The notes below the pieces were generated by a model. It searched no databases and was not told where the DNA came from. It saw only the letters and a program-made list of their open reading frames with translations. From Afipia sp. (GTDB lineage Bacteria; Pseudomonadota; Alphaproteobacteria; Rhizobiales; Xanthobacteraceae), in the NCBI GenBank assembly GCA_017474385.1, contig JAFVHU010000044.1, forward strand, positions 1 to 59,760: a stretch of 59,760 bases of DNA, written 5' to 3'. The translations under genes and the position numbers were made by a program. Positions 30,125 to 58,149 of the stretch are shown here, piece after piece; the first letter of the stretch is position 1, and each line of letters begins with the position of its first letter.

Positions 30125-30233
30125 GCCCTCGCTGTGCTGACATGACTGGTCGTCATGCGGGCGATGACGATGTCTCGCTTGACGCCGCGATCTGCATCCT
30201 GACAGATGACGGACCACTAGCAAATACAAGTTC

Positions 30234-30311
30234 CTAGTGGAGTTTGGATTTGACATTCGCATTGCGAACTCGCTGTTCGTTCGGTAGCGAATGTCAAATC
30301 CACTCCACTAG
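30234..30311. repeat. long imperfect palindrome, family member A
   Basis: The left arm 30234-30260 and right arm 30287-30311 are complementary over 25 bp, interrupted only by two unpaired T on the left arm after the tenth base. The outer ends read CTAGTGGAGT and ACTCCACTAG; the inner stem ends CATTCGC/GCGAATG. The 26-nt loop holds a small hairpin (CGAAC...GTTCG). An extra CCACTAG copy sits at 30214-30220, complementary to the left end. The geometry is the same as in the elements at 42205 and 42293. Confidence 0.85.
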
Positions 30312-34142: not shown

Positions 34143-34235
34143 CGTCATTCCGGGGCGCGAGCGTGAGCGAGCGAGCCCGGAATCTCGAACTTCTGGATTC
34201 CGGGTCCGCGCCAAGTGGCGCGTCCCGGAATGACG
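34143..34235. repeat. nested palindromic repeat (REP-like)
   Basis: The outer arms CGTCATTCCGGG (34143-34154) and CCCGGAATGACG (34224-34235) are perfectly complementary. Inside, CCCGGAATC (34176-34184) pairs with GATTCCGGG (34196-34204). Thus the unit can fold as one long arm or as two hairpins. It fills most of the 141 bp between the two acyl-CoA dehydrogenase genes. Repeats with this ATTCCGGG core are common between genes in Bradyrhizobium relatives, as far as I recall. Confidence 0.8.
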
Positions 34236-41430: not shown

Positions 41431-42183
41431 TCAACGCATGAAGAAGCGCACCGGCACGGTGAAACTCGCGGAGCTTTGCGTCATTTCCGGCGGGAACGAC
41501 GGCAATGGCTGCGCGCGGCGGATCATCGCCATGGTTTCGCCATCCAAAGCCGACGAGCCGGACGATTTGGCAAGTCGCGCACTCAGCACGCCGCCGGTGC
41601 GGCTGACGGTGAAGCTCAGCATCGCGACGCCCTGCTCGCCGGCCGCCTTCGCGCCCGACGGATACTGCTTGTAGCGCTGGAGATGCGCCGAGAGGATGCC
41701 GTTATAGCTCGCGCGGGCGGCCTGCGCGGCGCGCGGCGTTGCCGTGGTCTGCGGCGCGGGATTCTCGGTGGGCTTCTTCGGCTTCTCGACGACAGGCTTC
41801 GGCTTCTGCTTCACCGGCTCCGGCTTGGGCTTTGGCTTTTCGGGAGGTGCGACGACCTCGGCCTTTTCCTGTACCGGCGTCGGTGCGATCTGCTCCTCGA
41901 CGACATCCGGCTGTTTTTCAGGCTCGGGGGCGGGAGGTTCGGCCTCCTGCATCTGCGGGCCGGGCGCGATGTCCTGCTGCACCGGGTCAGGCGTTTGCGG
42001 CGCGGGTTCCAGATCGAGCATGATCGGTTCGGACGCCGTGCCGATCGCGTCCGGCATCGACGGCGTGTACAGGACAAATCCCGCGACCAGCGCCACATGC
42101 GTCGCCACCACCAGCGCCGCCGCGAGACCCCAGCGGCGGACGTCGGATATGTCGGGCGGTCCGTGCAGGACGAGTGTGTTCAT
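41431..42183 (-). CDS. tonB: TonB-family energy transducer
   Basis: From ATG 42183 the 250-residue protein has a single N-terminal membrane anchor (LAAALVVATHVALVAGFVLY). Then comes a long Pro/Glu/Lys-rich periplasmic spacer (about 60-150) and a C-terminal TonB domain with LQRYKQYPSGAKAAGEQGVA near 170 and ending SFTVPVRFFMR. A longer frame upstream would be translated from palindromes and is rejected. It completes the exbB-exbD-tonB system, though two palindromes separate it from exbD by 182 bp. Confidence 0.9.
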   Translation of the reverse strand: MNTLVLHGPPDISDVRRWGLAAALVVATHVALVAGFVLYTPSMPDAIGTASEPIMLDLEPAPQTPDPVQQDIAPGPQMQEAEPPAPEPEKQPDVVEEQIAPTPVQEKAEVVAPPEKPKPKPEPVKQKPKPVVEKPKKPTENPAPQTTATPRAAQAARASYNGILSAHLQRYKQYPSGAKAAGEQGVAMLSFTVSRTGGVLSARLAKSSGSSALDGETMAMIRRAQPLPSFPPEMTQSSASFTVPVRFFMR

Positions 42184-42204
42184 TGCAGCGAGGCTCTCTG
42201 CCGT

Positions 42205-42280
42205 CAGTGTGGTGGTTCGCAAGTCCGCAACATTTTCTCGGCACCTTACATTTGCGGACTTGCGAACCAAAACCACACTG
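42205..42280. repeat. long imperfect palindrome, family member C
   Basis: The left arm 42205-42230 and right arm 42252-42280 pair over 26 bp, with three unpaired bases (AAA) in the right arm nine to twelve bases from its outer end. The ends read CAGTGTGGT and ACCACACTG, the inner stem GGTTCGCAAGTCCGCAA. The loop is 21 nt. Compared with members A and B it has the bulge on the opposite arm, so it is in the reverse orientation. Confidence 0.85.
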
Positions 42281-42292
42281 AAATTATAATTT

Positions 42293-42369
42293 CTAGTGTC
42301 CTTTTGAATCCGAAGTTCGCTATGGAGCGCGCCGCGAAAACGAGGCGAACTTCGGATTCAGGACACTAG
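42293..42369. repeat. long imperfect palindrome, family member B
   Basis: The left arm 42293-42320 and right arm 42345-42369 pair over 25 bp with three unpaired T on the left arm after the tenth base. Ends read CTAGTGTCCT and AGGACACTAG; the inner stem is GAATCCGAAGTTCGC. The loop is 24 nt. The last bases contain the TAG stop codon of exbD (42366-42368 on the minus strand). It lies 12 bp from member C. Confidence 0.88.
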
Positions 42370-42794
42370 TTTCTTGCGTCGAGCCCGACCAGCGCCACCT
42401 TGAGGTAGCCGGCGTTGCGCAGCAGGTTCATGACGTCCATCAGTTCACCGTACGGGACGGTCTTGTCGGCGCGCAGGAAGACCGGATCGGACTTCTTACC
42501 GCTGGTGGCCGCGTCGAGCGTGCCGATCAGCGTCGTGCGCGGAACGACGTTCTCGCCGACTGCAACCGAAAGGTCAGGCTTCACGGTGATGAAGACCGGC
42601 TTGTCGGGCCGTGGCGGCGGCGTCGCCGTCGATGCCGGAAGCTCGACGCCAATATCGACGGTGGCCAGCGGTGCGGCAACCATGAAGATGATGAGGAGAA
42701 CCAGCATCACGTCGATGAACGGCGTGACATTGATTTCGTGTGTCTCGGACAGATCGTCATCTGCTTCGACTTTTCCACCCAGGCGAGCGCCCAT
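42366..42794 (-). CDS. exbD: biopolymer transport protein ExbD
   Basis: The 142-residue protein has one N-terminal helix with the essential membrane aspartate (NVTPFIDVMLVLLIIFMVAA, near residue 22-41) and a periplasmic domain (VELPAS..., DKTVPYGELMDVMNLLRNAG). It uses the proton gradient with ExbB to energise TonB. It starts four bases after the exbB stop. Its stop codon lies inside palindrome B, so the element has inserted at, or replaced, the natural 3' end. Confidence 0.94.
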   Translation of the reverse strand: MGARLGGKVEADDDLSETHEINVTPFIDVMLVLLIIFMVAAPLATVDIGVELPASTATPPPRPDKPVFITVKPDLSVAVGENVVPRTTLIGTLDAATSGKKSDPVFLRADKTVPYGELMDVMNLLRNAGYLKVALVGLDARN

Positions 42795-54543: not shown

Positions 54544-54628
54544 TGTCATGGCCGGGCTTGACCCGGCCATCCATCTAAAGAGAAAAGTTCGCCAAGGATG
54601 GATTGCCGGGTCAAGCCCGGCAATGACA
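54544..54628. repeat. double-hairpin repeat (REP-like), copy 1
   Basis: Two 30-base arms, 54544-54573 and 54599-54628, are inverted copies with four differences. Each arm is itself a hairpin (GGCCGGG...CCCGGCC on the left, TGCCGGG...CCCGGCA on the right). The differences come in pairs that keep each small hairpin paired. The repeat lies between the binding-protein gene and the first permease gene. Confidence 0.85.
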
Positions 54629-58060: not shown

Positions 58061-58149
58061 TGTCATGGCCGGGCTTGTCCCGGCCATCCCGATTACGAGG
58101 GCACTGTTCTCAATTGATCGGGATCACCGGGACAAGCCCGGTGATGACA
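58061..58149. repeat. double-hairpin repeat (REP-like), copy 2
   Basis: Two 33-base arms, 58061-58093 and 58117-58149, are inverted copies apart from four bases, again in compensating pairs (GGCCGGG/CCCGGCC on the left, CACCGGG/CCCGGTG on the right). The repeat lies between livF and the facing unknown gene and contains that gene's stop codon (58124-58126). Confidence 0.88.

Follow-up and report, generated by a model that had tools for sequence, protein, structure and literature searches.

Among the described systems closest to the element reported here are the REP, BIME and REPIN repeats, including the GTAG and CGTC families of Bradyrhizobium. In the accessible parts of the respective papers (PMC3733652, PMC3116915, PMC8266576) these appear, like the present element, as intergenic, many-copy sequences with bulged stems, inverted doublets, clusters and a role for CT/AG dinucleotides; according to the available text of PMC8266576, cleavage at CT by TnpA_REP can be chosen via complementarity with the AG of GTAG. 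Bru-RS1 and Bru-RS2 of Brucella, a genus of the same order as our organism, are also palindromic and mostly intergenic. As far as the accessible text of PMC2267715, PMC10800456, PMC3163539 and PMC2266754 goes, they differ in being described as single palindromes of 103–106 bp. A point of likeness is that one Bru-RS1 has been invaded by an IS711 copy at YTAR, a motif of which CTAG is one form. The RIME, Sm and ABC repeats of Rhizobium and Sinorhizobium are, by their description in the available part of PMC2573895, likewise structured intergenic repeats of Rhizobiales. MITEPsy1 of Pseudomonas syringae is small and non-autonomous and has a CTAG target; the accessible portion of PMC3189936 sets it apart by its length of 100 nt, its 18-nt terminal repeats and the 4-nt duplication that accompanies its insertion behind CTAG or YTAA. 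According to the available part of PMC2266710, a duplication of exactly 4 bp is made by nearly all IS701 elements. Mitochondrial double-hairpin elements, to judge from partial accounts, are alike by name only, being small elements with two hairpins, and are organellar.

The window, by which we mean the whole stretch of 59,760 nucleotides of Afipia sp. DNA that was analysed, carries between exbD and tonB an element of distinct anatomy. Whereas the REP/REPIN tag is mostly GTAG (or CGTC) on a palindrome of 20–50 nt, the foot of this twin hairpin reads (CT)AGTG and the hairpins measure 69–80 nt in the window's genome, with loops of about 20 nt, two unlike types paired with each other and a CTAG-like target. 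We consider it probable (about 0.78) that the twin hairpin represents a new family of non-autonomous mobile DNA of some 160 bp, made of two unlike hairpins placed head-to-head and moved in trans. It would belong with the small palindromic non-autonomous elements, and a relation to Bru-RS and RIME is possible. No description of a twin-hairpin element was found in the open-licence literature, subscription papers lying mostly outside that search.

The unit between exbD and tonB

A preliminary description of this DNA had recognized three palindromes, A, B and C, with outer stems of 9–10 bp, a T-rich bulge of 2–3 bases, inner stems of 15–17 bp and loops of 21–26 nt, and had taken B and C, the latter inverted, for separate copies in tandem. 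The T-bulged hairpins B and C are indeed present, the start lying at 42204 rather than 42205, and the geometry was confirmed for A, B and C except that the inner stem of B, at 18 bp, exceeds the range given. B and C, however, are not two copies but the two halves of one head-to-head unit composed of two different hairpin types. In the following feature list, scores refer to R1, a covariance model of six copies (A, B, C and three from outside).

42204..42369, no strand: one twin-hairpin unit of 166 bp between exbD and tonB, laid out as the other pairs
42204..42281, minus strand (read 5′–3′ on that strand): hairpin B, type a, 90.3 bits with R1 and itself an R1 member; outer stem 42204–42212 / 42273–42281, inner stem 42213–42230 / 42252–42269, loop 42231–42251
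42270..42272, minus strand: three-base bulge of B, TTT on the minus strand
42282..42292, no strand: AT-rich centre between B and C, 11 bases (10–14 in other units)
42293..42369, plus strand: hairpin C, type b, 88.4 bits with R1 and itself an R1 member; outer stem 42293–42301 / 42361–42369, inner stem 42305–42320 / 42345–42360, loop 42321–42344
42302..42304, plus strand: three-base bulge of C, TTT
42204..42205, no strand: outer dinucleotide TC of the unit, equal to the empty site of Afipia clevelandensis (GTC^AGTTTC) and pairing with the inner dinucleotide GA of B
42366..42369, no strand: CTAG foot of C, in which minus-strand positions 42368–42366 are the exbD stop codon TAG
42366..42794, minus strand: exbD, upstream neighbour (open reading frame; relatives by protein)
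41431..42183, minus strand: tonB, downstream neighbour (sequence, open reading frame and home-made gene call; chosen start codon 20 bases past the unit)
30234..30311, plus strand: hairpin A, one half of a damaged unit, its arm being of type c (folding, R1 match)
30211..30220, plus strand: GGACCACTAG, foot remnant of the partner of A (type d), from sequence; centre at 30221–30233

The arms of B and C are perfect. B combines a 9-bp outer stem, an 18-bp inner stem, a 21-nt loop and a three-base bulge on the right arm, and C a 9-bp outer stem, a TTT bulge on the left arm, a 16-bp inner stem and a 24-nt loop. Hairpin A, with an outer stem of 9 bp, a two-base bulge, an inner stem of 16 bp and a loop of 26 nt, is one half of a damaged unit, its partner being reduced to little beyond the foot and the stretch preceding that foot lacking a family-type fold. 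As RNA, the three hairpins fold 8.1 to 9.4 standard deviations better than dinucleotide shuffles, none of 200 shuffles reaching any of them. Neither terminator-like nor promoter-like sites were found in 42000–42600. Elsewhere in the window, inverted repeats beginning TGTCAT or CGTCAT (54544–54628, 58061–58149 and 34143–34235) bear a resemblance, and a resemblance only, to CGTC-type REPs as presented in the accessible text of PMC3733652.

Copies in the genome of origin

From 747 first-look candidates, the R1 search of the window's genome yielded at least 150 scored matches at no fewer than 146 places, A, B and C included, with E at or below 7e-9, in keeping with the family that had been proposed. 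The matches listed comprise 65 pairs with a gap of 10–14 bases, every one of which repeats the opposed orientation already noticed for B and C, and 16 places without a partner. A sample of 537 kb of the same genome, chosen around known copies, gave 258 matches over both strands, which resolve into 64 units and two unpaired hairpins, namely A and L163:8386. The arms of the 64 units fall into six types that occur in fixed pairs (a–b in 37, c–d in 12, e–f in 11, others in 4). The inverted doublet was thus found to be the replicating unit, as it is in REPINs, since 65/65 pairs among the matches listed are head-to-head and the types are linked in 60/64 units. A very divergent unit at L171:4357–4524, with outer ends CGAGTCCCC and GCGGTACTGA, keeps the twin-hairpin layout and perhaps stands for a fourth subfamily.

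Covariation of the stems

A geometric hairpin scan, covering the window and the ExbD region at 80 loci of named genomes (1.5 Mb in all), returned 27 hairpins. Six are of this design: A, B, C, two from Bradyrhizobium sp. LHD-71, which lie head-to-head, and one from Brucella gallinifaecis; several of the others resemble REP-type repeats, and a looser scan gave many chance hits. The six align when the bulge is set on the 5′ arm, with double changes in 16 of 26 pairs. In this orientation A, B and C have in common the foot CTAGTG or TCAGTG, the T bulge and an inner stem near TGGATTTGAAGTTCGC. Of the earlier statement that folding and not sequence is conserved, the first half therefore stands, as the copies do covary, while the second does not, as the sequence is not free and is partly shared by A, B and C.

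Covariation was quantified outside the window's genome, on 41 loci that supplied 65 hairpin rows; two places are represented on both strands, and three rows are members of the model. The alignment was fitted to the model and hence favours structure, but the controls are nonetheless far off. Paired cells made up 97.3% as compared with 76.8% in shuffles, and double-changed cells numbered 351 as compared with 102, neither value being reached by any of 500 shuffles, while slid structures paired at 26–38% only. Watson–Crick double changes were seen at 25 of the 26 stem pairs, and one-sided changes were few except at two stem-end pairs. Pairing within the family is thus conserved while the sequence changes, which upholds the covariation of copies asserted in the preliminary description.

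Strong covariation in intergenic DNA need not signify a functional RNA. In an RNA helix, G–U is expected to be favoured over A–C. The stem columns of 129 hairpins from the window's genome contain 3201 Watson–Crick, 63 G–T and 29 A–C cells, but the surplus of G–T is due to the stem ends: 44 of the 63 fall in the stem-end columns 14–82 and 31–65, outside which 19 G–T cells stand against 22 A–C cells, with no G–T excess. This absence of excess inside the stems points to pairing as DNA, or to correction between the arms. Rfam gave no match at gathering score in the window and one tRNA only in six other unit-bearing loci.

Palindrome correction, that is, template switching between the arms, would generate covariation without selection and would make the hairpins passive. 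The Watson–Crick changes on both sides with few intermediates are what it predicts, as is the frequent match of outer to inner dinucleotides described below. It leaves unexplained, however, the conserved bulge (three bases in 120/129 hairpins, mostly TTT or CTT), the conserved foot and the loop, whose loose consensus is near GGAacGTGCyGCaaAAATGA. Moreover, the resident orthologous copies L216/L217 and L224/L225, the two pairs that were compared by eye, differ in their stems with no matching opposite change, and such mismatches have remained uncorrected. Passive correction as the source of the pattern accordingly seems to us rather doubtful; it would in any case be compatible with mobility. If the twin hairpin is mobile DNA, its covariation would derive from selection to keep the fold movable rather than from a role played wherever a copy resides.

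Empty sites, nesting and arrays

In Afipia clevelandensis (L001) and in an Afipia metagenome-assembled genome (L002), exbD and tonB are joined without a unit. Among the units of the window's genome that could be located with their flanks in a fetched relative, 14 of 16 are absent from at least one relative, which speaks for the small mobile elements that the preliminary description had suspected. The same-genus genome G065 has no unit at 11 of 12 compared places, several of them with gapped flank alignments, and at the twelfth, L148:3687, carries a unit that is oppositely oriented and has different loops. An inversion in place was considered for L148:3687 as compared with L261, but divergence is far greater in the loops than in the flanks, which makes independent insertion likelier. 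At L144:19066, one of the two places where the unit is not missing, G025 has a unit of another type within the same interval; at L153:4865 a unit of LHD-71 lies in the same interval, the flank alignments ending 65 and 219 bases short. These two cases (L144:19066/L122:1501 and L153:4865/L028:3253), each with the same interval but different arm types in two species, give an impression of site re-use.

The cleanest case for mobility is that of the related contigs L349–L352. L351 and L352, which are 99.8% alike, are empty and L349 has one unit, while L350 has a unit base-for-base identical to that of L349 and, inserted at the inner ACACTAG of this first unit, a second one of 161 bp. Arrays of units with a single common CTAG were found in G043, G147 and G220 (L194, L196, L193, L198, L125 and L220). 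These alignments show that the hairpin pair moves as a unit and can enter a resident unit at its CTAG foot.

Target sites and unit ends

Comparison of filled with empty sites indicates that insertion occurs at CTAG or CTAG-like tetranucleotides. The outer ends read CT…AG in most units. The empty site corresponding to L145:4734 is CTAG in four of four relatives, and that of L145:9558 is CTAG in two of three and CTGA in the third. Other empty sites read TCAG (the window's unit), TTAG (L165:4455), CAAG or CCAG (L148:16856), AGAT (L142:7357) and, for L351, CCAG, L349 being one base longer there. Outside the units CTAG is scarce, with 127 occurrences as compared with 385 expected from the CTA, TAG and TA counts.

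The CTAG present at both ends of most units, and the one shared within arrays, would fit equally well with a MITE of a DDE transposase of the IS5 or IS701 kind, in which an element reading TG…CA is flanked by a duplicated 4-bp CTAG. MITEPsy1 and IS701 provide precedents of such a 4-nt duplication, as far as the accessible portions of PMC3189936 and PMC2266710 go. The length of the insertions does not decide the matter, because the net insertion length is equal under both models. A hand count was therefore made on five well-aligning non-CTAG sites (the window, L165:4455, L148:16856, L142:7357 and L349, other non-CTAG sites with gapped or differing relatives being left out): about 4 base changes are needed without duplication as against about 12 with a 4-bp duplication, a difference that would lose weight if the ends were altered after insertion. 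The non-CTAG sites thus seem to fit better with insertion without duplication. In addition, the two ends are different hairpin types, unlike the matching terminal repeats of a MITE, and we regard this origin as unlikely.

Pairing between the inner and the outer flanking dinucleotide extends over both positions in 84 of the 86 CT ends and 23 of the 42 other ends; hairpin B, whose outer dinucleotide is TC and whose inner one is GA, is among the 23. At L165:4455 and L142:7357 the outer dinucleotide is unlike the empty site of the relatives and may therefore have been altered at or after insertion. For a mobile twin hairpin, an enzyme acting in trans would recognize the folded hairpin as DNA, either in a single strand or in a cruciform, possibly through the foot AGTG/CACT, the three-base T bulge and a loop near the above consensus. 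With less weight, it may be suggested from the complementarity that the inner dinucleotide beside each foot, by pairing with the outer flank, helps to choose the cleavage site. The likeness to the CT/AG pairing of TnpA_REP would be an analogy of working and not a sign of membership.

It is tempting to speculate, although we would not favour the idea, that these elements form a separate class, in which a protein-less hairpin heterodimer inserts without duplication into targets chosen partly by pairing, with the help of an enzyme not yet described. If so, the class would be defined by structure and would evolve by paired changes, and it may escape catalogues of repeats and RNA families that are based on sequence. 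An enzyme that reads structure and is guided to its targets by pairing would represent a new DNA-mobilizing activity.

Gene neighbourhood

According to home-made gene calls, an overlap with a predicted gene exceeds 30 bp in 4 of the 64 units of the window's genome. Its 59 unit-bearing gene pairs are tandem in 41 cases, divergent in 17 and convergent in 1, as compared with 9.7–11 convergent pairs expected by pairs, by intergenic bases or by longer intergenic gaps. The 16 unit-bearing pairs of G065 comprise 9 tandem, 6 divergent and 1 convergent. For 61 units or arrays of other genomes the figures are 40, 14 and 7, and for 99 unit-free pairs 63, 16 and 20, respectively, so that the shortage of convergent sites (7/61 versus 20/99) is weaker outside the window's genome. 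A conceivable reason for the near-absence between convergent genes (1/59) is the negative supercoiling that arises upstream of genes.

The CTAG foot provides the stop codon of a neighbouring gene for 13 of 64 units in the window's genome, 4 of 16 in G065 and 19 of 61 in other genomes. This is, for example, the case of exbD, whose stop codon is TGA in L001 and a TAG from the unit's foot in the window. A preference for stop codons was considered and rejected, since free non-genic CTAGs of the window's genome lie at stops equally often (22 stop, 72 intergenic; p 0.70). A single genome harbours at least 146 such hairpins, some of which form stop codons or lie between tandem genes.

The scarcity between convergent genes of the window's genome (1/59 versus 9.7–11), the many units between tandem genes and the high folding energy might suggest that the hairpins are RNA or DNA structures useful to the host, such as a processing site, an attenuator or a 5′ control element, kept at chosen places like the exbD–tonB interval; the preliminary description had suggested that folding there could set the relative expression of exbD and tonB. 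A host-useful structure is difficult to reconcile with the lack of a G–T excess inside the stems, the few one-sided changes there (65-row set), the relatives without a unit at most compared places and the two resident cases that decay without compensation. The convergent shortage is, moreover, weaker in other genomes, and 42000–42600 contains no terminator- or promoter-like site. A resident host function therefore appears very unlikely to us.

Search for a possible mobilizing enzyme

No transposase was found among 20 scanned proteins of the 38 predicted at 11 low-copy loci; 19 of the 20 matched Pfam, many of them being housekeeping enzymes. Nor did inspection by eye of the matches listed for 30 low-copy genomes reveal an autonomous copy with a gene between two far-apart hairpins. 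Most of these matches form close head-to-head pairs; the others include some that stand alone and one adjacent pair, G105:C97, whose best strands are + +.

The preliminary description had envisaged a linked RAYT-like protein. All seven genomes of the genus that were searched, the window's own (84% complete) among them, carry units, but none gave a match to the corresponding Y1_Tnp domain (PF01797). The domain is present in 35 of 149 family genomes, which by hand count divide into 24 of the 85 genomes with units and 11 of the remaining 64, so that 61 of the 85 have no match. Inverted doublets, hairpins, high copy number and tandem clusters, as ascribed to REPINs in the available text of PMC3116915, would all suit a REP/REPIN moved by a RAYT (Y1) transposase, and the bulged stems and CT cleavage of TnpA_REP, in the part of PMC8266576 that is accessible, resemble the bulge and the CT/AG pairing seen here. 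The distribution of PF01797 nevertheless argues against such an enzyme, as do the lack of a GTAG or CGTC foot tag and the hairpin length, and membership of the REP/REPIN group is highly improbable.

Mobilization of a twin hairpin from the single-stranded lagging strand would predict a bias of orientation with respect to replication; no such bias was seen in 67 units of G065. Endonuclease VII-like genes (PF02945) lie near the units of two contigs (L349:1961–2527, L350:3250–3840 and L350:811–1296). As a linked enzyme they were discarded, their relatives being present also at the empty L351 and L352 and absent from the other loci examined, and the proximity is probably a coincidence.

Distribution

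The element is scattered across the Alphaproteobacteria. R1 matches, counted on both strands, were obtained for 85 of 149 genomes in the family, 29 of 199 in the order and 16 of 289 in the class; the order figure contains the window's own genome and four family members, the class figure the window's own. Of 39 named genomes or records, 19 gave matches. Their number is 38 in Afipia clevelandensis, at least 125 in Bradyrhizobium LHD-71, 34 in Brucella gallinifaecis, 7 in B. pseudintermedia, 49 in B. rhizosphaerae, 12 in Mesorhizobium J18 and 4 in a Roseibium plasmid. The 20 of 39 named genomes with no R1 match include Xanthobacter, two Methylopila, Rhodopseudomonas faecalis, Magnetospirillum, Telmatospirillum and two Pseudomonas, as well as Neorhizobium galegae and two Rhizobium; the 0 matches in the latter three may mark a difference from the RIME, Sm and ABC repeats. 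Phage records searched gave no match to the unit. Seven plasmid records of Roseibium or Labrenzia match 61% of it. Four IMG/VR contigs match R1; in view of the histidine-kinase gene beside the unit of L349, contigs of this sort may stem from a host genome. Another contig, L353, was set aside, matching a short pattern but not the model. Finally, the class genome G434 contains a relative with shorter hairpins of about 52–64 nt, at least two head-to-head pairs of which occur among the matches listed.
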